A stretch of 64,000 nt of DNA. Origin: Bacillota bacterium. GTDB lineage: Bacteria; Bacillota_I; Bacilli_A; RF39; UBA660. Below the pieces are notes generated by a model. That model saw only the letters and a list, made by a program, of their open reading frames with translations, did not search any database and was not told the DNA's origin. Shown one piece after another: positions 12,337-56,401 of the stretch; positions within the stretch are counted from its first letter, which is position 1; each line of letters begins with the position of its first letter. The position numbers and the translations under genes are program-made. The stretch covers positions 14,894 through 78,893 of the forward strand of contig SVAU01000009.1 in NCBI GenBank assembly GCA_015059245.1, written 5' to 3'.

Positions 12337-13737
12337 ATGAGTGGAGGAAGATTTTTTAATAGTCTTGGTTATGGTCAAGGTACTCCTAATACTCAACCAA
12401 ATAATTTAAATAATAACAATAATAGTGGTAATTTTGGTAGTGGAACACCTGGTATGATGGGGAATAATCCTATGCAATCTGCTCAGCAAATCCCTGGTAA
12501 TCCAATGAATCCGGTTTCTTCTATGAATCCGATGAATCCGATGGCAAATGGAAATCCAATGAATAATGGAAACACTATGAACCAAGGAAATCCTATGAAT
12601 CAAGGAAATCCAATGAATCAAGGGAATCCAATGAATCAAGGGAATCCTATGAATCAAGGGAATCCTATGAATCCTATGAATCCAATGGGTGGACCACAAA
12701 ATCCAATGAATAACGGAACCCCAATGAATCAAGGTAACCCAATAAACAATGGTATGTTTATGAATAAAGATATGGCAGCAAATCAATATGCTGGTCCATT
12801 ACATCAAGATCCTGTTCCTCCAATGGGTGGACAAGGAAATCCAATGAATAATGGTATGACAGGTGCTAACCAAGGTTTCTTAGGTGCTCAACAAAATCCA
12901 ATGAATTCTATGAATCCGATGGGTAATCCAATGAATCAAGGGAATCCAATGAGTCAAGGTAACCCAATGAATCAAGGTAACCCAATGAATCCTATGAGTC
13001 AAAATAACCCAATGAATTCTATGAATCCAATGGGTGGACCACAAAATCCAATGAATAATGGAAATCCAATGAATCAAGGAAATCCAATGAATCCAATGGG
13101 GCAAAGTAATCCTATGGGAAATAATGGTCCGATGAATCCAATGGGACCTATGGGAAATAATCCTATGAATTCTATGAATAATGGAAATCCAATGGATAAT
13201 CAACAAACAATAATGATGAATAGTAATGATGGTCCAAGTTTTAATAATAGTTTAAATGGTGTTAATGCAATGGGAAATCCTATAGCTCAACCAATGCCAC
13301 AAACAGATTTATCTATGAAACCAAAATTAAAATTTGATGTTAAGAAACTATTTATTATAGGTGCTGCTGTTTTAATAGTAATTGCAGTTGTACTTTGCTT
13401 AGTATGTTCTAAGACTATTACTTGTACTAACTCTAAGGAAAGTGGAGGAGTTAAAGTAACTGCTACTCTTAAAGTTAACTATTGGTTTAATAAAATTAGT
13501 AAAATTACAACAATTACAGAGATAGATTTATCTAAATTAAATGAATCACAAAGAGAAAAATATTTTAATGATTATAAAAACAATGATATAGGTGCTGATG
13601 TAAAAATGGATGATGATTCAATTACAATAACATCAGTAAATAAACCTACTGATAAAGATAAAGAAAAAGGTGCTGATAAAGTATCACCAGAAGATTTTAC
13701 AAAAGATTATGAATCTATCGGCTTTACTTGTAAGTAA
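12337..13737 (+). CDS. Asn-Pro-Met-Asn repeat membrane protein
   Basis: 466 residues. Residues about 1-325 are low-complexity Asn, Pro, Met, Gly and Gln. They contain tandem QGNPMN hexapeptides (clearest near 83-110 and again near 198-225) mixed with NPMNPMGGPQ variants. A basic stretch KPKLKFDVKK precedes one membrane helix (about 338-358), so the repeat region should be cytoplasmic and the last 105 residues, with a Cys pair and a beta-rich domain, outside. Antisense frames within 12406-13206 stay open only because of the repeat. No family recognised. The repeat unit at DNA level is about 18 bases and could vary in copy number. Confidence 0.85.
   Translation: MSGGRFFNSLGYGQGTPNTQPNNLNNNNNSGNFGSGTPGMMGNNPMQSAQQIPGNPMNPVSSMNPMNPMANGNPMNNGNTMNQGNPMNQGNPMNQGNPMNQGNPMNQGNPMNPMNPMGGPQNPMNNGTPMNQGNPINNGMFMNKDMAANQYAGPLHQDPVPPMGGQGNPMNNGMTGANQGFLGAQQNPMNSMNPMGNPMNQGNPMSQGNPMNQGNPMNPMSQNNPMNSMNPMGGPQNPMNNGNPMNQGNPMNPMGQSNPMGNNGPMNPMGPMGNNPMNSMNNGNPMDNQQTIMMNSNDGPSFNNSLNGVNAMGNPIAQPMPQTDLSMKPKLKFDVKKLFIIGAAVLIVIAVVLCLVCSKTITCTNSKESGGVKVTATLKVNYWFNKISKITTITEIDLSKLNESQREKYFNDYKNNDIGADVKMDDDSITITSVNKPTDKDKEKGADKVSPEDFTKDYESIGFTCK
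12510..13200 (+). repeat. Imperfect 18-base coding tandem repeats (QGNPMN)
   Basis: Units close to AATCCAATGAATCAAGGG recur in two blocks, about 12582-12690 and 12925-13000, with related NPM units between them. Unit copies differ mainly at third codon positions, so this is a protein repeat under selection rather than a freshly amplified DNA repeat. Confidence 0.8.
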
Positions 13738-44834: not shown

Positions 44835-45002
44835 GTAAATCACCCACTAATTTTCTATTTTTTATTATACCATAAAATGGGTGCTTAAACAAATGAGATT
44901 TTGTGTTGATGTAATCTTTACATTCCTAGACAATACCGAGGTTTTATAGATGTAAATATTATGTTATAATTATACTGATAAACTATGGTAAGGAGTGATG
45001 GT

Positions 45003-47078
45003 ATGAAACGATTATTAAATTATTTTATGTTAGTTTTATGTATTGTTGGTACTTTTCTACTTACTATAAGTAGTGTAACTATGGTTAATGCTGCTGAGGT
45101 GTATCCTTATAAGGGAGCAATATTAGCTCCTACTTTAGTAGTTCATAATAAAGCTAATACTTCATCTAGTTCTGCTGTAACTGAAATAGCTTATGGTACT
45201 GTTGTAGATGTTTTGGAGAGCGCTGCTAATAATACAGTTAAGATTAAGTATGATGGAGATAAAGAAGGATATGTTTCTAAGTCATATGTTGTTAATTTAG
45301 AAACTAATACCTTAACTGAAAGTGTTTCTGGTATAGAAACATATGGAGATTATTGTAATAGTTTAGTTGCTAAAGGATTTAATAAGAGTTATTGTCCTCA
45401 TTTATATTATTTACATTCTAAACATCCTAAGTGGATATTTACTCCTGATGTAATAAATGAAACTCTAGAGAGTGCTGCTGCTACACAAGAAGGTAAAAAT
45501 GGATTACAAACAGATAATCAAAACTATTGGTTAAGTTCTATTCAATATGAAAGTGGTTACTATAAAGTTAAAGCTAGTTTAATTCTTTCAGTTATGGATC
45601 CAAGAAATAGTTTGTATGATGCAACTATATTTCAATTTTTAGATTTAGAAGATTCAAGTGATATATATAATGATCAAGTATTAGCGAAAGTGGCTGCAGG
45701 TGGTAATTTGACTAATTTTTATACTGAGTTTAAAGAAGCCGCTACTAAGAATAAAGTTAATGTAGTTCATTTAATGGCTAGAAGTAAACAAGAGGGGGCC
45801 AATAAAGTAGGATATAGTCCTACTAAAGGTAGTTATTCTACTGATCATAATTTATTTTCTCATCAAGGTTACAGTTTAGATGGATATTATAATTTCTTTA
45901 ATATAGGTGCTTATAAGGAAGAAGAATTGGGATATACTGATACAATTCAAAGAGGTTTAGCTCATGCTGCTGGTTATTTTGCTAATAATACTTGTTTTAT
46001 AGTTGATGAGACTGATCCTAAGAAAGCTACTTACGATCCTACTAAGTACAAAACGGATGGTAAAACTTTATGTGGAGAATTGTCTTATCAAAGACCATGG
46101 AATACTCCATCTAAAGCAGTTTCTGGTGGAGCTGAATTTATTGCTGGTGATTATATAAGACAAGGTCAAGATACAATGTATTATCAAAAATTTAATGTTG
46201 CTTCATATGCAAAGATAAAAAGACATACACATCAATATATGACTAATTTAGGTGCTCCTTGGAGTGAAGCAGATATGTTATATAAAGCATATAAAGCTGG
46301 TAACTTAGTTGATGAAGCATTCAACTTTGTAATACCAGTATATAAGAATATGCCTGATACTGTTTATCAACCTATTAATAAAAGTAGTAATAATAGATTA
46401 AGTAATATAACTATAAATGATAAGAATTTTGAAGTATTTGATGCAGATGTAGTTGAATATAATTACAACTTAGTTACTAGTGAAGATACATTTAAAATAG
46501 GAGCTAAAACTGAAGATAGTTTAGCAACATTAACTGGTACTGGAGATTATACTTTTGTAGAAGGAAAAGCTGAAGTTAAGATAACAGTACAAGCTGAAGA
46601 TGGTTCAACTAATATATATGTTTTAAATATTAAGAAAGTTATTCCTGAAGAAGTTGTTACAGTTAATGATGTAGTATCTAAGATGGGAATTAAAGTAGAT
46701 GAAAATATAATGTATGGAATTAGTCCTGATACTGCAATAACTACTATAGTTAATACTGTTACTAAGAATAAAGGTGAAGCTAAGGTAACTGATTCTGCTG
46801 GTAAAGTAAAATCAAGTGGTTCATTTGTTACAGGAGATAAGATTACAATAGTAGGTACAAGTGAAGAGAAAACATTTAGTATTGCTGTTAGAGGTGATGT
46901 TAATGGGGATGGCGTTGTTGATTTAAAAGACTTTGTTTTAATCCAAAGTCATATATTAGAAAAGAGTAAATTAACTGGTGTAAAAAATTATGCTGGTGAT
47001 GTTAATTATGATGGAAAAATAATACTTGCTGACTTTGTATTAGTTCAAAGTCATATATTAAAGAAACAAAGTTTATAG
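45003..47078 (+). CDS. Secreted glucosaminidase with SH3b, cadherin-like and dockerin domains
   Basis: 691 residues from ATG 45003 (AGGAGTGATG upstream, overlapping a longer frame). Signal peptide about 1-32, SH3b about 35-105, then a GH73-type glucosaminidase domain (YLHSKHPKWIFTP, with E264 in ARSKQEGA as likely catalytic acid) to about 440. A cadherin-like beta-sandwich (LSNITINDKNFEVFDADV) follows at about 465-545. A type I dockerin ends the protein (about 630-691) with two calcium loops, GDVNGDGVVDLKDFVLIQSH and GDVNYDGKIILADFVLVQSH. Dockerins bind cohesins; a cohesin-like protein is encoded nine bases downstream. Confidence 0.9.
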   Translation: MKRLLNYFMLVLCIVGTFLLTISSVTMVNAAEVYPYKGAILAPTLVVHNKANTSSSSAVTEIAYGTVVDVLESAANNTVKIKYDGDKEGYVSKSYVVNLETNTLTESVSGIETYGDYCNSLVAKGFNKSYCPHLYYLHSKHPKWIFTPDVINETLESAAATQEGKNGLQTDNQNYWLSSIQYESGYYKVKASLILSVMDPRNSLYDATIFQFLDLEDSSDIYNDQVLAKVAAGGNLTNFYTEFKEAATKNKVNVVHLMARSKQEGANKVGYSPTKGSYSTDHNLFSHQGYSLDGYYNFFNIGAYKEEELGYTDTIQRGLAHAAGYFANNTCFIVDETDPKKATYDPTKYKTDGKTLCGELSYQRPWNTPSKAVSGGAEFIAGDYIRQGQDTMYYQKFNVASYAKIKRHTHQYMTNLGAPWSEADMLYKAYKAGNLVDEAFNFVIPVYKNMPDTVYQPINKSSNNRLSNITINDKNFEVFDADVVEYNYNLVTSEDTFKIGAKTEDSLATLTGTGDYTFVEGKAEVKITVQAEDGSTNIYVLNIKKVIPEEVVTVNDVVSKMGIKVDENIMYGISPDTAITTIVNTVTKNKGEAKVTDSAGKVKSSGSFVTGDKITIVGTSEEKTFSIAVRGDVNGDGVVDLKDFVLIQSHILEKSKLTGVKNYAGDVNYDGKIILADFVLVQSHILKKQSL

Positions 47079-47087
47079 GAGGATATT

Positions 47088-48593
47088 ATGAAAAGAATAA
47101 AATATTTTATATTCATGATAGGTGTGTGCTTACTAGGTTTAGGTACTGTTAATGCTGCTAAGTTTAATGTTACTACTAATAAAACTACAGTTGTTGTAGG
47201 TAGTACAGTTAAAATTACAGTAGGTGTTAGTGGTAGTGATGCTGCTGGTTGGGAATATTGTTTAAATTATGATAGTTCAATGTTTTCTTTAACTAGTCAT
47301 AGTAGTACTTGTGTACTTGGTGGTACTTTAGCAGGTAATAAAAGTGTTACATTTACATTTAAAGCTAAGAAGAGTGGCTCATATACATTTTCTTTAAGAG
47401 ATGCTTCAATCTTAAATGATTCTGCTAAAGAGGTATTATCTAGTTCTGGAAAAGTAACAGTAAAAGCTAAAACACAAGCTGAGATAGAAGCTAGTTATAG
47501 TACTAATGCTAATTTAAGTGCATTAAGAGTTGTTGATCATGTTATTAGTCCTGACTTTGATAAAGATAAATTAGAATATACTTTAGAAGTAGAAAATGAT
47601 GTAGAAAAGATAGAAATAAAAGCTACTAGAGCAGATAGTTCTGCTAGTGTAAGTGGAACTGGTGTTAAGAACTTGAGTGAAGGATTAAATAAATTTAATA
47701 TAGTAGTTACTGCTGAAAAAGGTAATAAGAAAACTTATGTAATTAATGTAACTAGAAAAGAATTAAATCCTATACATGTAGATGTTGATGGATTTAATTA
47801 TACAGTAGTAAGAAAAGCTGATGTATTAGAAGCTCCTACATACTATTCAAGTACTGAAATAGAAATAGATGGAGAAATGGTTCCTGCATTTAATAGTGAT
47901 ATAACTGGATATACATTAGTTGGTCTTAAAGATGAAGAAGGAAATATAGATTTATATAGATATACTGATACTGGTTATGTTTTATATAAACAAATTGGTA
48001 CTGAAGGATTAGTATTTATACCTGGTACTAATGAAAAACTAATTACTGGTTATGAACAAAGTAAAAATATTACTATTAATAATGTTAATGTAAAAGTATA
48101 TGTAGATAATAGTAATAGTGATTATGTATTAGTTTATGGTATGAATGCTTCTAATGGTAAGAGTAATTGGTATATATATGATACTTTAGAAGGTACTTTC
48201 CAAAGATATGAAGAAAAGATAATTACTGAAGAAAAGAAAGATAAAGATATATATTTTATACTTACTTTAGTATTTGGGGGAGTAGCTGGTTTAACGTTAT
48301 TACTTGTTATAATATTACTATCTAAGAATAGTAAGATAAGACAAAAGAATGAAAAACTAATAAGTATGTTACAAGCTTTAAGAGAAGCTAAAAAAGATAA
48401 AGATACTTTTGTAGATAAATCTTCTGAAGAAGCTAAGGAGTCAGAAAAAAAGAGAGAGTTACAAGAAGAACTTAGAAAGAAACAAGAAGAATTTATGGAT
48501 ACTGGTGAAAATGAATTAGTAAGTGATGATGTTGAACTTGAAGAAAGTACACCAGTTAAGAAAAGTAAAAGAGGTAGAAAAAAGAAAGAGTAA
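47088..48593 (+). CDS. Membrane-anchored cohesin-like protein
   Basis: 501 residues. Signal peptide (about 1-23), then a beta-rich domain (about 24-128) with VGSTVKITVGVSG, WEYCLNYDSSMFSLTS and VTFTFKAKKSGSYTFSL, the pattern of cohesin-type modules (shorter than the usual 140 residues). A cadherin-like sandwich (about 145-222), a region of about 150 unassigned residues, one membrane helix (about 387-408) and a Lys/Glu-rich cytoplasmic coiled coil follow. A GGAGG site is present. Co-transcribed with the dockerin glucosaminidase, so it probably anchors it. The cohesin assignment rests on pattern only. Confidence 0.65.
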   Translation: MKRIKYFIFMIGVCLLGLGTVNAAKFNVTTNKTTVVVGSTVKITVGVSGSDAAGWEYCLNYDSSMFSLTSHSSTCVLGGTLAGNKSVTFTFKAKKSGSYTFSLRDASILNDSAKEVLSSSGKVTVKAKTQAEIEASYSTNANLSALRVVDHVISPDFDKDKLEYTLEVENDVEKIEIKATRADSSASVSGTGVKNLSEGLNKFNIVVTAEKGNKKTYVINVTRKELNPIHVDVDGFNYTVVRKADVLEAPTYYSSTEIEIDGEMVPAFNSDITGYTLVGLKDEEGNIDLYRYTDTGYVLYKQIGTEGLVFIPGTNEKLITGYEQSKNITINNVNVKVYVDNSNSDYVLVYGMNASNGKSNWYIYDTLEGTFQRYEEKIITEEKKDKDIYFILTLVFGGVAGLTLLLVIILLSKNSKIRQKNEKLISMLQALREAKKDKDTFVDKSSEEAKESEKKRELQEELRKKQEEFMDTGENELVSDDVELEESTPVKKSKRGRKKKE

Positions 48594-50842: not shown

Positions 50843-52039
50843 ATGGATGAAACTAGAAAAGAACGTTTAAAAAGAATTAATCCTAATAATATTAATCCTA
50901 ATGGGAGATATATACGTAGGGATAGAGAAGGTACTGTAGTAGATATGACTACATTAAGTGTAGAAGATATTAGATTCTTAAGATGGTATCATAATAATCC
51001 TAATATAGCATTTAATGTACAAGTTCCTACTACTAATAGAAGACCTAGTGCTAATGTAGAAACTAATAAACCTGTTAATAGACAAGTTAGAGTTTCTAGA
51101 GATCAAAAGTATAATAAACCTAAATATAGATTAAAAGAACCTATTAGAGTAGTAGGGAAATATGTAATTATATTTGGTTTAGTAGTATGTATAGGTGTTG
51201 CTTCTTTATCTGCTATATTAAGTCCTAATAAAGGTGGAGATACTAGCCCTGGTGGTGCTTATGTTACTATGACTGATAATCCTGGATATACTAGTGGTAG
51301 TGATTATATGGATAGTCCTACTGCACCAAGTACACCTGAGGTAGAAGATGAAGAATATGTACATCAGGTAGAGAGAGCTGAATTTATTAAGATACTATGT
51401 AATGTATTCCAAGTAGATTATCAAACTACATATAGTAAATTAGTAGAAATGACTGATGATTTTAGTGATCCTGAATACTTAGCTGGTAGACATCCTTTAG
51501 TTAGTTGTAAAGGTATGAGTATTGATGCTGATAGTGAAGAAGAATTCTTAGTATATGCTGTTAGAGTTATTGCTCAAGATCCTGGTAGAGTAGATTTATC
51601 TTCAAGTGAAGTATGTATAGATAATGGATATGATAGTGGTACTAACTATGTAGAGATGATAGCTAAATGGGCTAAAGTATTAGATGTAGATCCTGCTTTA
51701 GTTTATGGAATAATGAGAGCGGAAACTGGTTTTAGTAGTGAATTATTTATGGAAAGCCATAATCCTGGTGGACTAAAAGATGGTACAGGTAATGGATTTT
51801 GGATATTTCCTAATAAAGAAGCTGGTATTATAGAACTTATGATGGAAATAGTTAAATACCAATATAAGGGAGCTAATACAATAGAAGAAATGGCTAAGAT
51901 ACATTGTCCAGTAAATGATCCTGAAGATAAAAATGGATTAAATAAAAACTGGGTAAGAAATGTAACTAATGGTTATGAAGAAGGTAGAGAAATATTTGAA
52001 CAGATGGGATATTACGAAAGTAATGGACTTTCTTATTAA
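50843..52039 (+). CDS. Membrane-anchored glucosaminidase-like wall hydrolase
   Basis: 398 residues. A basic cytoplasmic N-terminus (about 1-100), one membrane helix (about 106-128), a Ser/Pro/Asp linker, then an extracellular domain. The C-terminal part has WAKVLDVDPALVYGIMRAETGFSS (Glu294 likely catalytic), HNPGGLKD and KNWVRNVTNGYEEG, the pattern of glucosaminidase/lysozyme-like domains. It probably cuts peptidoglycan near the membrane. Short 5' region with TATAAT and GGTGATG. Second such enzyme in this envelope region. Confidence 0.8.
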   Translation: MDETRKERLKRINPNNINPNGRYIRRDREGTVVDMTTLSVEDIRFLRWYHNNPNIAFNVQVPTTNRRPSANVETNKPVNRQVRVSRDQKYNKPKYRLKEPIRVVGKYVIIFGLVVCIGVASLSAILSPNKGGDTSPGGAYVTMTDNPGYTSGSDYMDSPTAPSTPEVEDEEYVHQVERAEFIKILCNVFQVDYQTTYSKLVEMTDDFSDPEYLAGRHPLVSCKGMSIDADSEEEFLVYAVRVIAQDPGRVDLSSSEVCIDNGYDSGTNYVEMIAKWAKVLDVDPALVYGIMRAETGFSSELFMESHNPGGLKDGTGNGFWIFPNKEAGIIELMMEIVKYQYKGANTIEEMAKIHCPVNDPEDKNGLNKNWVRNVTNGYEEGREIFEQMGYYESNGLSY

Positions 52040-55000: not shown

Positions 55001-55449
55001 CTGCTAAAAAAGATCTATTCAAGATAGCTATGGGATATCCTAATTGTTATGTAGCTAATATATCTTTAGGAAGTAATTTCATGCAAACTATTAAAGCATT
55101 TAAAGAAGCTGAAGAACATAATGGACCATCTATTATAATTGCTTATTGTCCTTGTATAGAACAAGGTATTAAAGGTGGTATGTGTAATGCTACTTCAGAA
55201 CAAAAACTAGTAGTTGAATGTGGTTATACTACATTAATGAGATATAATCCTGTAGATGAAAAATTAACGATAGATAGTAAAGAACCTGACTTTGATAAAT
55301 TTGATACATTATTAAATAATGAAGTTAGATATAATAGTCTTGTTAAGAAAAATCCTGAACTTGCTAAAGAAGTATTAGAATTAAATAAACAAGATGCTAT
55401 CAAACGTTATAATTACTATAAAAAATTAAGTGAAGAAAAGAGTGAGTAA
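52081..55449 (+). CDS. nifJ: Pyruvate:ferredoxin (flavodoxin) oxidoreductase
   Basis: A 1122-residue single-chain PFOR that makes acetyl-CoA, CO2 and reduced ferredoxin from pyruvate, a hallmark of anaerobes. Domains in order: pyruvate/TPP domain I (IYPITPSSPMAAEVDVL), domain II (about 260-400), gamma domain, two 4Fe-4S clusters (CIQCGQCALVCP and CTSCGLCIANCP, about 670-730), and the C-terminal TPP domain (GSCAGCGETPYIKLL, GDGWAYDIGFGG, TEVYSNTGGQASKS). Length is slightly shorter than the usual 1170. GGGAGG ribosome binding site. Monocistronic. Confidence 0.96.
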   Translation: MYKIIDGNKACADVAYLFSEIASIYPITPSSPMAAEVDVLSHTDKKNIFNDDVKVIEMQSEAGAAGTMHGALLAGSLATTFTASQGLLLMIPNMYKMAGECLPAVIHVAARTLATHALSIFGDHSDVYATRGTGFCMLASTNVEQANHMAAVAHLSAIKGSLPFVHFFDGFRTSHEVNKVKELQDEDLIKLVDFDKVNEFKKKMLNVDSGIQKGMAENEDIYFQSVEARNELYNVMPDIVNEYMGEINKLTGKDYKPFNYYGSDKATNVIVAMGSVCDTAKLVVEDLVNKGEKIGLVEVHLYRPFSPYYLKNVLPNTVERIAVLDRTKEAGSIGEPLYLDVVSSLNDTNIKVVGGRYGLSSKNTTPDQIYAVYEMLKEELKNNFTIGIVDDVTNLSLPKYDYTIDLGAKEIKIFGFGSDGMVSTSKDIMKIMGNGTNEYVQSYNQYDSKKSGGVTICNLRISDKPINAPFYVTNPGIVVCTKDEYLFKFDMINDIKQDGIFVLNTTKTKDELDGFLPNKVKNVINDRNVKLYIIDADKIALDAGIKGKISKIMQMVIMSLLEYPDALNVIGKSIEKQFATKGDDVINANKKAITLALDNLVLVDNKLTIVEENVKIDKNIFDEINARRGDDLTVSDLVPFREGTFPCGLSKNEKRKTSTLVPKWNSEQCIQCGQCALVCPHAVIRPIVHEDKSAGIPFLGKPEYTYEIVVSEADCTSCGLCIANCPGKAGNKALEFGTYDEKVQERATELFENHKNPENLFPKFTVKGSQFIEPKFEFSGSCAGCGETPYIKLLTQLFGDKLVIANATGCSSIYGGSAPSTPYSIPWANSLFEDNAEFGFGMLLSYNKSRDRIEKIMNSSKAKGEVKELYTKWLENREDFDITKEIKDKLIEIGVPEELKDLIDYVPARSVWTLGGDGWAYDIGFGGIDHVLSSGENVNILVLDTEVYSNTGGQASKSSRIGQVAQFADNGKKTAKKDLFKIAMGYPNCYVANISLGSNFMQTIKAFKEAEEHNGPSIIIAYCPCIEQGIKGGMCNATSEQKLVVECGYTTLMRYNPVDEKLTIDSKEPDFDKFDTLLNNEVRYNSLVKKNPELAKEVLELNKQDAIKRYNYYKKLSEEKSE

Positions 55450-55462
55450 TCACTCTTTTTTT
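55436..55462 (+). terminator. Intrinsic terminator of nifJ
   Basis: Stem AAAAGAGTGA / TCACTCTTTT including the stop codon, GTAA loop, T-run. Confidence 0.85.
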
Positions 55463-55519
55463 GTGAATAAAAAAGGAAATAGAAAAGTTATCTATAATAA
55501 TATAAGTAGGGGGAGTGTT

Positions 55520-56401
55520 ATGAACTACTATAGTGAGATAAAAAATAGATTAATAGAAAATGAAAACTATGCAAGAATTAAAGATTATTCTAAAGAAAGA
55601 TATAAAGTACAAACTTATTATGAAGTGGGGAAGATGCTTAGTGAAGCAGGGAAATGTTATGGAGAAGGAATAATTAAAAAATATTCTGAATTGTTAAGTA
55701 AAGAGTTAAATAAAAAATATAGTTATAGAAGTTTAATTTATATGTTAAGGTTTTATGAGTTACAAAAAGTGCAGTCAATGACTGCAAATTTGTCTTGGGG
55801 ACATTGGATAGAACTTTTATCTATTAAGGATATAGAAAAAATAAAATATTATGTTTACCAAACAGAATATAACTGTTTAACTACCAGAGAATTAAGACAA
55901 AGAATCAAAAACAAAGAATATGAAAGATTAGATGATAGTACTAAACAAAAGTTGATTAATAAAGAAGAATTTACTATACAAGATAATATTAAAAATCCTA
56001 TTATTATATATAATAAAAATAATAGAAGTTTAGTAACTGAAAAAGATTTACAAAACATAATAATTGAAAATATAGCTTCTTTTTTGAAAGAATTAGGTAA
56101 TAAATTTTGTTTCATAGATAATGAATATAAGATTAAAATAGGAGATAGTTATAATTATATAGATTTATTATTATATAATTCAGAGTATCATTGTTATGTT
56201 GTAGTTGAACTTAAAATAACTGAGTTAAAGAAAGAATATATAGGTCAAATAGAAACTTATATGAATTATGTAGATAAGAATATAAAAGATATAATAGATA
56301 ATAAAACTATTGGGATAATTATTTGTAAGAAAGATAATAAGTTTATTATGGAATATTGTAGTGATTCTAGAATATTAAGTAGATTTTATGAGATCAAATA
56401 A
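55520..56401 (+). CDS. YhcG-type PD-(D/E)XK nuclease (DUF1016)
   Basis: 293 residues from ATG 55520, with TAGGGGGAG upstream; an open frame from 55430 lies in the nifJ end and terminator. The N-terminal domain (about 1-140) has YYEVGKMLSE, LSWGHWIELLSI and TTRELRQRI, the DUF1016 N region. The C-terminal domain has IDLLLYN and CYVVVELKI, the D...ExK metal site, then GQIETYMNYVD. YhcG proteins are thought to act on branched DNA or in defence; a role here is not fixed. It stands alone, not beside a restriction system. Confidence 0.9.
   Translation: MNYYSEIKNRLIENENYARIKDYSKERYKVQTYYEVGKMLSEAGKCYGEGIIKKYSELLSKELNKKYSYRSLIYMLRFYELQKVQSMTANLSWGHWIELLSIKDIEKIKYYVYQTEYNCLTTRELRQRIKNKEYERLDDSTKQKLINKEEFTIQDNIKNPIIIYNKNNRSLVTEKDLQNIIIENIASFLKELGNKFCFIDNEYKIKIGDSYNYIDLLLYNSEYHCYVVVELKITELKKEYIGQIETYMNYVDKNIKDIIDNKTIGIIICKKDNKFIMEYCSDSRILSRFYEIK

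Follow-up and report, generated by a model that had tools for sequence, protein, structure and literature searches.

A candidate cohesin-dockerin tether for a glucosaminidase at the membrane of small-genome gut Bacilli

Most work on cohesins and dockerins has concerned their role in holding together complexes that degrade plant fibre. The locus described here raises the question of what such modules do when the dockerin ends a secreted glucosaminidase and the cohesin-like module begins the membrane protein encoded by the very next gene. To address this question, the two genes were analysed within a 64,000-nucleotide stretch of DNA from a Bacillota bacterium (contig SVAU01000009.1), hereafter called the window, and were compared with their counterparts in other genomes.

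The two genes and their modules

The glucosaminidase gene is assigned the ATG at 45003, just 5' of which AAGGAG is read directly. The open reading frame listing includes an in-frame ATG further upstream at 44985, and it is from this codon that enzyme residue numbers (697-amino-acid numbering) are counted. Because the stop codon of this gene occupies 47076-47078 and the receptor gene begins with the ATG at 47088, the two are separated by nine bases. Direct reading thereby confirms both the gene coordinates and the spacing given in an initial annotation of this DNA (Table 1).

Table 1. Features of the glucosaminidase-receptor locus (window positions).
Feature	Position	Strand	Basis
Ribosome-binding site AAGGAG of glucosaminidase	44990..44995	+	read directly
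Entire glucosaminidase gene (secreted enzyme, dockerin at C-terminus)	45003..47078	+	sequence, domain matches, ribosome-binding site
Signal peptide of glucosaminidase	45003..45095	+	by eye
SH3_3 domain, residues 53-102 (697-aa numbering)	45141..45290	+	PF08239 29.4 bits, cut-off 27
Glucosaminidase catalytic region, about residues 120-460	45342..46364	+	PDB match, SagB similarity
Glu270, presumed catalytic	45792..45794	+	invariant 34/34; aligned to 6fxo Glu
Weak cadherin-like domain of enzyme, residues 472-550	46398..46634	+	PF12733 15.2 bits, below cut-off 24.2
Type I dockerin (residues 637-692) with two calcium-loop repeats spaced by 34 residues	46893..47060	+	PF00404, repeat symmetry
TAG stop overlapped by AGGAGG of receptor gene, 9-base spacer	47076..47087	+	read directly
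Membrane receptor (cohesin, cadherin-like domain, membrane-proximal domain, transmembrane helix, tail), whole gene	47088..48593	+	
Signal peptide of receptor, residues 1-23	47088..47156	+	by eye; helix 2-17 in model
Cohesin module, residues 24-128	47157..47471	+	
Cadherin-like beta sandwich, residues 143-224	47514..47759	+	PF12733 48.6 bits
Membrane-proximal beta domain, residues 230-375	47775..48212	+	model; kept in more distant genomes too
Transmembrane helix, about residues 386-411	48243..48320	+	model helix 384-433; hydrophobic stretch by eye
Lys/Glu-rich cytoplasmic tail ending KRGRKKKE	48321..48590	+	sequence

The cargo enzyme looks like a peptidoglycan hydrolase. Its catalytic region matches Bifunctional autolysin (6fxo) in the PDB with an E value of 5.8e-10, and scores 54.4 bits against the NCBIfam SagB model, below the cut-off of 425. 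Glu270, which we take to be the catalytic acid, aligns with the glutamate of LLETGNG in 6fxo and is the same residue in all 34 aligned sequences, the window included. A Pfam scan of the window enzyme gave no match to PF01832, the profile for GH73 glucosaminidases, which scores above its cut-off in 9 of 12 partner enzymes from more distant genomes. The enzyme has 1998 relatives at E<=0.001. An SH3_3 domain near its N-terminus was absent from the initial annotation.

A two-loop type I dockerin had been claimed at the enzyme C-terminus, and PF00404 matches this segment with 38.7 bits against a curated cut-off of 22.9. The loop aspartates at positions 638, 642, 649, 672, 676 and 683 are kept in 106, 103, 107, 103, 102 and 106 of 107 dockerins, respectively. 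Moreover, the six strongest couplings within the dockerin (647-681, 652-686, 648-682, 651-685, 660-694 and 655-689) all join residues exactly 34 apart, and the seventh does not. The two calcium loops are near-symmetric, so the dockerin can probably bind in either of two orientations.

The receptor, which has 837 relatives at E<=0.001, carries the signal peptide, cadherin-like sandwich and membrane helix (in the model, from residue 384) expected from the initial annotation, which had further proposed that its N-terminal module is a cohesin. This identity is borne out when residues 22-130 are scanned alone, yielding a PF00963 match of 27.2 bits against a cut-off of 24.1, and 37 of 46 homologous N-terminal modules also match this family. 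In a PDB profile search, 21 of the best 23 rows are cohesin modules (assigned from the name of the molecule, the title of the entry or what is otherwise known of it), and a structural search places cohesins at the top of the fold matches, the module having the cohesin jelly-roll fold. Only this one cohesin is present in the receptor, whose full-length Pfam scan reported no PF00963 cohesin and no carbohydrate-binding, SLH, sortase-signal or CAAX-protease match.

For the N-terminal module, the full-length scan returned only sub-threshold Ig-like matches, such as BatD and chagasin-like, as might be expected if the genes were merely syntenic, with an Ig-like module that binds wall polymers and a dockerin that is a relic. 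We regard this arrangement as most improbable given the cohesin score of the isolated module, its cohesin-led fold matches, the retention of the calcium-loop aspartates, and a co-divergence specific to dockerin and cohesin (see below).

Two further parts of the receptor were absent from the initial annotation. One is a domain of ~145 residues that separates the cadherin-like domain from the membrane; the other is a charged tail of ~90 residues at the C-terminus.

Conservation of the gene pair

Receptor matches at E<=0.001 occur in 340 of 385 genomes of one order, some of them weak and probably made via the cadherin-like domain. Strong matches (E<=1e-30) were counted by eye in about 284 of the 385, and a PF00404 match is present in 316. 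The pair is adjacent in 8/8 loci of a first set, and in 75 of the 77 genomes common to the receptor and PF00404 matches listed, a count made from the best 150 receptor rows, the best 150 PF00404 rows and 41 rows picked by eye as likely receptors. The initial annotation had named gene order in relatives as a check. The genes lie side by side on the same strand in 107/107 loci with both genes readable (109 minus two cut by contig ends), with 74-115 bases between the dockerin end and the start of the cohesin module, and are adjacent in 6/6 further loci. For this survey, 100 loci were drawn from the best 150 receptor rows, in rank order to G256, with G001, G025, G041, G243 and G389 left out. The pair occurs far more often than chance would give and has been retained in a large, little-studied bacterial group.

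In more distant genomes, probably from outside the order, a dockerin-type wall hydrolase precedes each of the 12 receptors that have an N-terminal module but neither of the two that lack it; the G600 receptor, located at a contig start, was left out of this count. Eight of the 12 N-terminal modules were scanned and none had a Pfam cohesin match, and 2 of the 12 dockerins score under the PF00404 cut-off. It is conceivable, though we hold this only tentatively and lean slightly against it, that much of the Bacilli has long relied on paired cohesins and dockerins as a core means of building the wall. Each peptidoglycan hydrolase of this type would have a private membrane receptor whose socket changes along with its plug, and the receptors of more distant lineages would carry dockerin-binding modules that have diverged beyond recognition as cohesins. 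If true, cellulosomes would be one specialised use of a pair that otherwise serves the cell's own wall.

The partner of one of these distant receptors is a GH25 lysozyme. This observation, together with the unfixed target of a secreted glucosaminidase carrying an SH3 domain, would suit a tethered enzyme that is displayed outward to attack neighbouring cells, break down foreign peptidoglycan or degrade host glycans, rather than to remodel the cell's own wall. We consider outward display unlikely, however, because a single transmembrane anchor and a short ectodomain keep the enzyme close to the membrane, and because the strong receptor matches are as frequent as housekeeping would predict. The envelope-type neighbours of the pair (LCP, GT4 and a sulfatase-fold protein) also argue against it; genes for LCP, a metallophosphoesterase and GT4 are kept near the pair in 8/8 loci.

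Divergence of dockerins and cohesins

If the two modules bind each other, changes in one might be followed by the other. Across the 107 loci, dockerin divergence correlates with that of the cohesin module when the catalytic domain and the rest of the receptor are held (partial r 0.52, P 0.0005), but not with the rest of the receptor when the catalytic domain is held (partial r 0.05, P 0.18), where P values come from Mantel permutations, which model phylogeny only in part. Together with the conserved adjacency, this tracking supports the enzyme-receptor pairing suggested by the initial annotation. Divergence of a linked block was considered as the cause of the signal and rejected. In the 79 of 107 loci with all segments usable (28 lacked one), the dockerin shows values of -0.006 with the preceding enzyme segment, 0.03 with the signal peptide lying between dockerin and cohesin, 0.08 with the cadherin-like domain after the cohesin, and 0.04 with the membrane-proximal domain, whereas its correlation with the cohesin is still 0.43 with all flanking segments held.

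The same values bear on the possibility that the receptor is chiefly a regulator that inhibits, activates or stabilises the hydrolase, with tethering secondary. SpdC is said to orient the SagB active site (PMC10581084), and the membrane-proximal domain is conserved without an assigned function. Nevertheless, the dockerin co-diverges with the cohesin module and not with this domain, and a primarily regulatory role seems to us fairly unlikely.

Joint change is seen among close relatives. Proteins P0124 and P0033, which were paired by a heuristic, the equal length of their contigs, are 86% and 87% identical to those of the window outside the two modules and 57% identical in both modules. In two of the 12 best close comparisons of 538 (L156/L159 and L093/L160), the dockerins have changed and the cohesins are nearly unchanged. 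Covariation at the level of sites is weak, with 12 of 7,326 dockerin-cohesin site pairs scoring above the maximum among 16,170 control pairs.

The dockerin might instead bind mainly another cohesin in the genome as part of a larger surface complex, leaving the neighbouring cohesin to serve otherwise. Second cohesin-bearing proteins, including one of ~2,450 amino acids, indeed occur in many genomes, and G001 encodes a second cohesin-like transmembrane protein, beside which no dockerin gene was seen. Among the 316 order-sample genomes with a PF00404 match, 179 have exactly one and 137 have more; among eight related genomes, five have a single match and one has seven. In 14 genomes, picked because both cohesin proteins were listed, the dockerin follows the adjacent cohesin (r 0.74, P 0.0002) and not that of the ~2,450-residue protein (r -0.25, P 0.98), a comparison that covers this protein and leaves out other candidates, such as one in L163. 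With the conserved adjacency of the pair also against it, we judge preferential binding to another cohesin very unlikely.

A proposed tether and its relation to known systems

We consider it highly likely, based on these sequence comparisons, that the two genes specify a one-to-one cohesin-dockerin tether that holds a glycan-strand cutter at the membrane. The glucosaminidase would be secreted, and its dockerin would plug, presumably in a calcium-dependent manner, into the one cohesin that tips a stalk anchored in the membrane and composed of cohesin, cadherin-like domain, membrane-proximal domain and transmembrane helix. The enzyme would thus be held at the outer membrane face, where new glycan strands emerge, and would most likely cut or release nascent strands of the cell's own wall at the membrane rather than act as a free autolysin. 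Such a tether would explain simply how these cells keep a potentially lethal autolysin in check. In this order of small-genome gut Bacilli, cohesin and dockerin are widely conserved as what appears to be a private pair, providing a natural series of plugs and sockets whose specificity may be readable from sequence.

The plug and socket modules are of the same kinds as in cellulosomes, and the position of the dockerin at the C-terminus of an enzyme is likewise shared. The locus differs in having one cohesin in the receptor and one adjacent, peptidoglycan-hydrolase-like cargo. A cellulosomal scaffoldin has several cohesins plus a carbohydrate-binding module, whereas the receptor has a single cohesin and no carbohydrate-binding module among its Pfam matches. 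Dockerin-bearing cell-wall hydrolases have been reported in the context of cellulosomes, with lysozyme activity described for that of Ruminococcus champellensis (PMC6403190). In the non-cellulosomal cohesins of Clostridium perfringens (2jh2, 2vo8 and 2w1n), the cohesin is carried by glycoside hydrolases, according to entry titles, whereas the present locus places it on a membrane receptor, with a wall hydrolase bearing the dockerin.

A functional parallel may be SagB-SpdC, a complex for peptidoglycan release in Staphylococcus aureus, in which a membrane protein, described as a CAAX-protease homologue, scaffolds a strand-cutting glucosaminidase (PMC10581084). Scaffolding of a glucosaminidase by a membrane protein is what we propose here, and the catalytic region of the window enzyme is weakly SagB-like. 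In contrast, the account of SagB-SpdC drawn on here mentions no cohesin or dockerin (PMC10581084), the window enzyme falls below the SagB cut-off, and the receptor has no CAAX-protease match in Pfam. The tether most likely works as SagB-SpdC does, but is built from other, unrelated parts.

The glucosaminidase and receptor genes

The enzyme gene encodes a secreted protein in which an SH3_3 domain and a glucosaminidase-like catalytic region are followed by a type I dockerin at the C-terminus (residues numbered from the ATG at 44985), and its matches in the PDB include glucosaminidases (e.g. Bifunctional autolysin and Autolysin E) and dockerins. The dockerin reported in the initial annotation was borne out by a Pfam match to PF00404 (38.7 bits; cut-off 22.9), and the coordinates of the two genes agree with the nine-base gap it had described. 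For the adjoining receptor, the signal peptide (assigned by eye), N-terminal beta module (the cohesin module), Cadherin-like domain (PF12733, 48.6 bits) and membrane helix that it had described also held, and two further parts were recognised, a membrane-proximal beta domain and a charged C-terminal tail. The AGGAGG of the receptor gene overlaps the TAG stop of the enzyme gene, which speaks for a single operon. Each of two cysteines in the cohesin module is conserved in at least 90% of 43 aligned sequences and absent in some relatives; perhaps they form a disulfide.

Coordinates of the gene pair and of other features observed in the window and in further loci
Feature	Location	Strand	Observation
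Enzyme	window 45003-47078		glucosaminidase with dockerin
Receptor	window 47088-48593		starts 9 bases after enzyme gene
Receptor cysteines	window 47259-47312		residues 58 and 75, cohesin module
Muramidase- or transglycosylase-looking protein (by eye)	window 50843-52039		DPALVYGIMRAETGF; within same envelope-type gene run; no Pfam match at E<=1
Repeat protein	window 12337-13737		long low-complexity NPMNQG-type repeat, then hydrophobic stretch and C-terminal domain (by eye); no Pfam match
YhcG/DUF1016 family nuclease	window 55430-56401		PF06250, 129.3 bits; directly after pyruvate:ferredoxin oxidoreductase-like gene (latter named by eye)
Second cohesin-like protein of genome G001	L163:1378-3246	-	cadherin-like-looking repeats and TM helix (by eye)
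2,482-aa open frame	L164:4342-11787	+	cohesin near start
Two adjoining frames and following genes	L165:130-6997	+	each frame ends in diverged dockerin-like repeat (GDLNRNNSIELEDV...); then sortase-looking gene (by eye) and cohesin-bearing frame cut by contig end

In a sample of 385 genomes from one order, the receptor was matched at E<=0.001 in 340 and at E<=1e-30 in about 284 (table counted by eye), and PF00404 was matched in 316, exactly once in 179 of these. Among the matches listed, 77 genomes have both, and in 75 the dockerin lies just upstream of the receptor on the same strand; reading the loci of the other two (G290 and G319) reveals the same arrangement. The survey of gene order in related genomes proposed in the initial annotation was carried out by reading 109 loci (100 drawn from the best-scoring genomes, 8 from public MAGs, and the window). 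A dockerin is present in 108 and shares a frame with the catalytic region in 107, both shortfalls being contig ends. In all 107 readable loci, the dockerin precedes the cohesin module on the same strand by 74-115 bases (median 86), and by 82-91 bases in six of six further loci. All eight MAG loci carry the pair, flanked at one end by metallophosphoesterase and LCP genes and at the opposite end by a GT4 transferase gene; a sulfatase-fold gene lies farther out in six, the remaining two being too short to tell.

Co-divergence of the dockerin and cohesin modules

The proposal that the dockerin of the enzyme binds the cohesin of the adjacent receptor was assessed by partial Mantel correlation of distances across 107 enzyme/receptor pairs, with P values not fully adjusted for phylogeny. 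Dockerin and cohesin distances are correlated when the catalytic domain and the rest of the receptor are held constant (r 0.52, P 0.0005). The corresponding values are r 0.05 (P 0.18) for the dockerin against the rest of the receptor with the catalytic domain held, and r 0.15 (P 0.002) for the catalytic domain against the cohesin module with the rest of the receptor and the dockerin held.

Such a correlation might originate from a linked block of sequence, a possibility evaluated with 79 pairs. The dockerin is not significantly correlated with the enzyme segment just before it (r -0.006), the signal peptide between the modules (r 0.03), the cadherin-like domain (r 0.08, P 0.08) or the membrane-proximal part (r 0.04), and with all four held, the dockerin-cohesin correlation is still r 0.43 (P 0.001). 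These findings argue against a linked-block origin. Weak but significant correlations occur between the cohesin and its own signal peptide (0.13) or cadherin-like domain (0.15), and between the enzyme segment and the cadherin-like domain (0.17). In 14 genomes that also encode a cohesin on an open frame of 2,406-2,532 aa, dockerin divergence tracks that of the adjacent cohesin (r 0.74, P 0.0002) but not that of the cohesin on the long frame (r -0.25, P 0.98), with the catalytic domain held.

Close relatives provide natural experiments, in which enzymes and receptors with P numbers are presumed partners, matched heuristically because their contigs are of the same length. Relative to the window, P0124/P0033 is 86% identical in the catalytic region and 87% in the receptor C-part, with dockerin and cohesin each at 57%. 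The respective values are 80% and 87% for P0126/P0030, with both modules at 93%, and 56% and 83% for P0136/P0035, with the two modules at 78% and 76%. The same pattern of joint change, among loci with proven linkage, separates L134 from L108, L114, L124, L131 and L135, differences that may reflect a single event. Among 538 close pairs, the correlation of dockerin distance is 0.68 with cohesin module distance and 0.36 with that of the receptor C-part. Counter-examples are L156/L159 and L093/L160, where the dockerins differ and the cohesins hardly do.

Of the couplings within the dockerin, the six strongest join sites exactly one repeat (34 residues) apart, indicating that the two repeats vary together, as they would if each were able to bind. 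The same dockerin positions recur in the strongest dockerin-cohesin couplings (dockerin 682, 652, 694, 686 and 651 with cohesin residues 109, 113, 75, 73 and 53), a modest signal, with 12 of 7,326 pairs stronger than the top-scoring of 16,170 controls. Such positions are presumably the recognition sites of cellulosomal dockerins.

More distant receptors and other cohesin-like proteins

With a receptor profile lacking the cohesin, 51 of 296 genomes of the class gave a match at E<=1e-15. Fourteen full-length receptors were read with their neighbours, all from genomes not among the 385, which cover part of the order; these genomes probably lie outside it. Twelve receptors have an N-terminal Ig-like module, and each of the twelve directly follows a frame ending in a dockerin, with -19 to 20 bases between the open frames. 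The other two (L207 and L208) start at the cadherin-like domain, with no N-terminal module and no dockerin gene upstream. Ten of the twelve dockerins exceed the PF00404 cut-off; those of L167 and L169 score less (19.5 and 20.0 vs 22.9) and were assigned by a custom profile. Nine of the twelve partner hydrolases match PF01832 over its cut-off, that of L169 is just under (28.7 vs 30.2), that of L209 was recognised by a custom catalytic profile only, and that of L167 is a GH25 lysozyme. One genome (G461) carries two pairs, with a separate receptor behind a PF01832 glucosaminidase (L166) and behind the GH25 lysozyme (L167). None of eight distant N-terminal modules scanned has a Pfam cohesin match, and a custom cohesin profile weakly matches those of L205 and L209.

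Other cohesin-bearing or cohesin-like proteins were also encountered. The L163 protein scores 22.0 bits against PF00963, under the cut-off, and no dockerin gene was seen beside its gene. Many genomes of the order have an open frame of ~2,400-2,500 aa that matches PF00963.

A putative membrane tether and its relation to known systems

The most economical reading of the sequences is a tether, in which the dockerin would plug the enzyme into the receptor and the receptor stalk would keep it near the membrane. Among 120 receptor relatives listed, those named are two 'cadherin-like beta sandwich domain-containing protein' entries and one 'hypothetical protein'. A limited literature search by title and abstract start found no earlier description of such a pair. 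The modules are known; what appears to be new in this putative pair is its architecture, its partner and its probable role.

By analogy, the job of the receptor could resemble that of SpdC, which, as described in PMC10581084, scaffolds the glucosaminidase SagB such that strands are cut to physiological length; we infer that an SpdC-like role fits the receptor. Dockerin-bearing cell-wall hydrolases are noted in a cellulosome context in PMC6403190. According to PMC5817068, cellulosomes are generally anchored via SLH-domain proteins, whereas the enzyme in the window would be held by a private transmembrane receptor.
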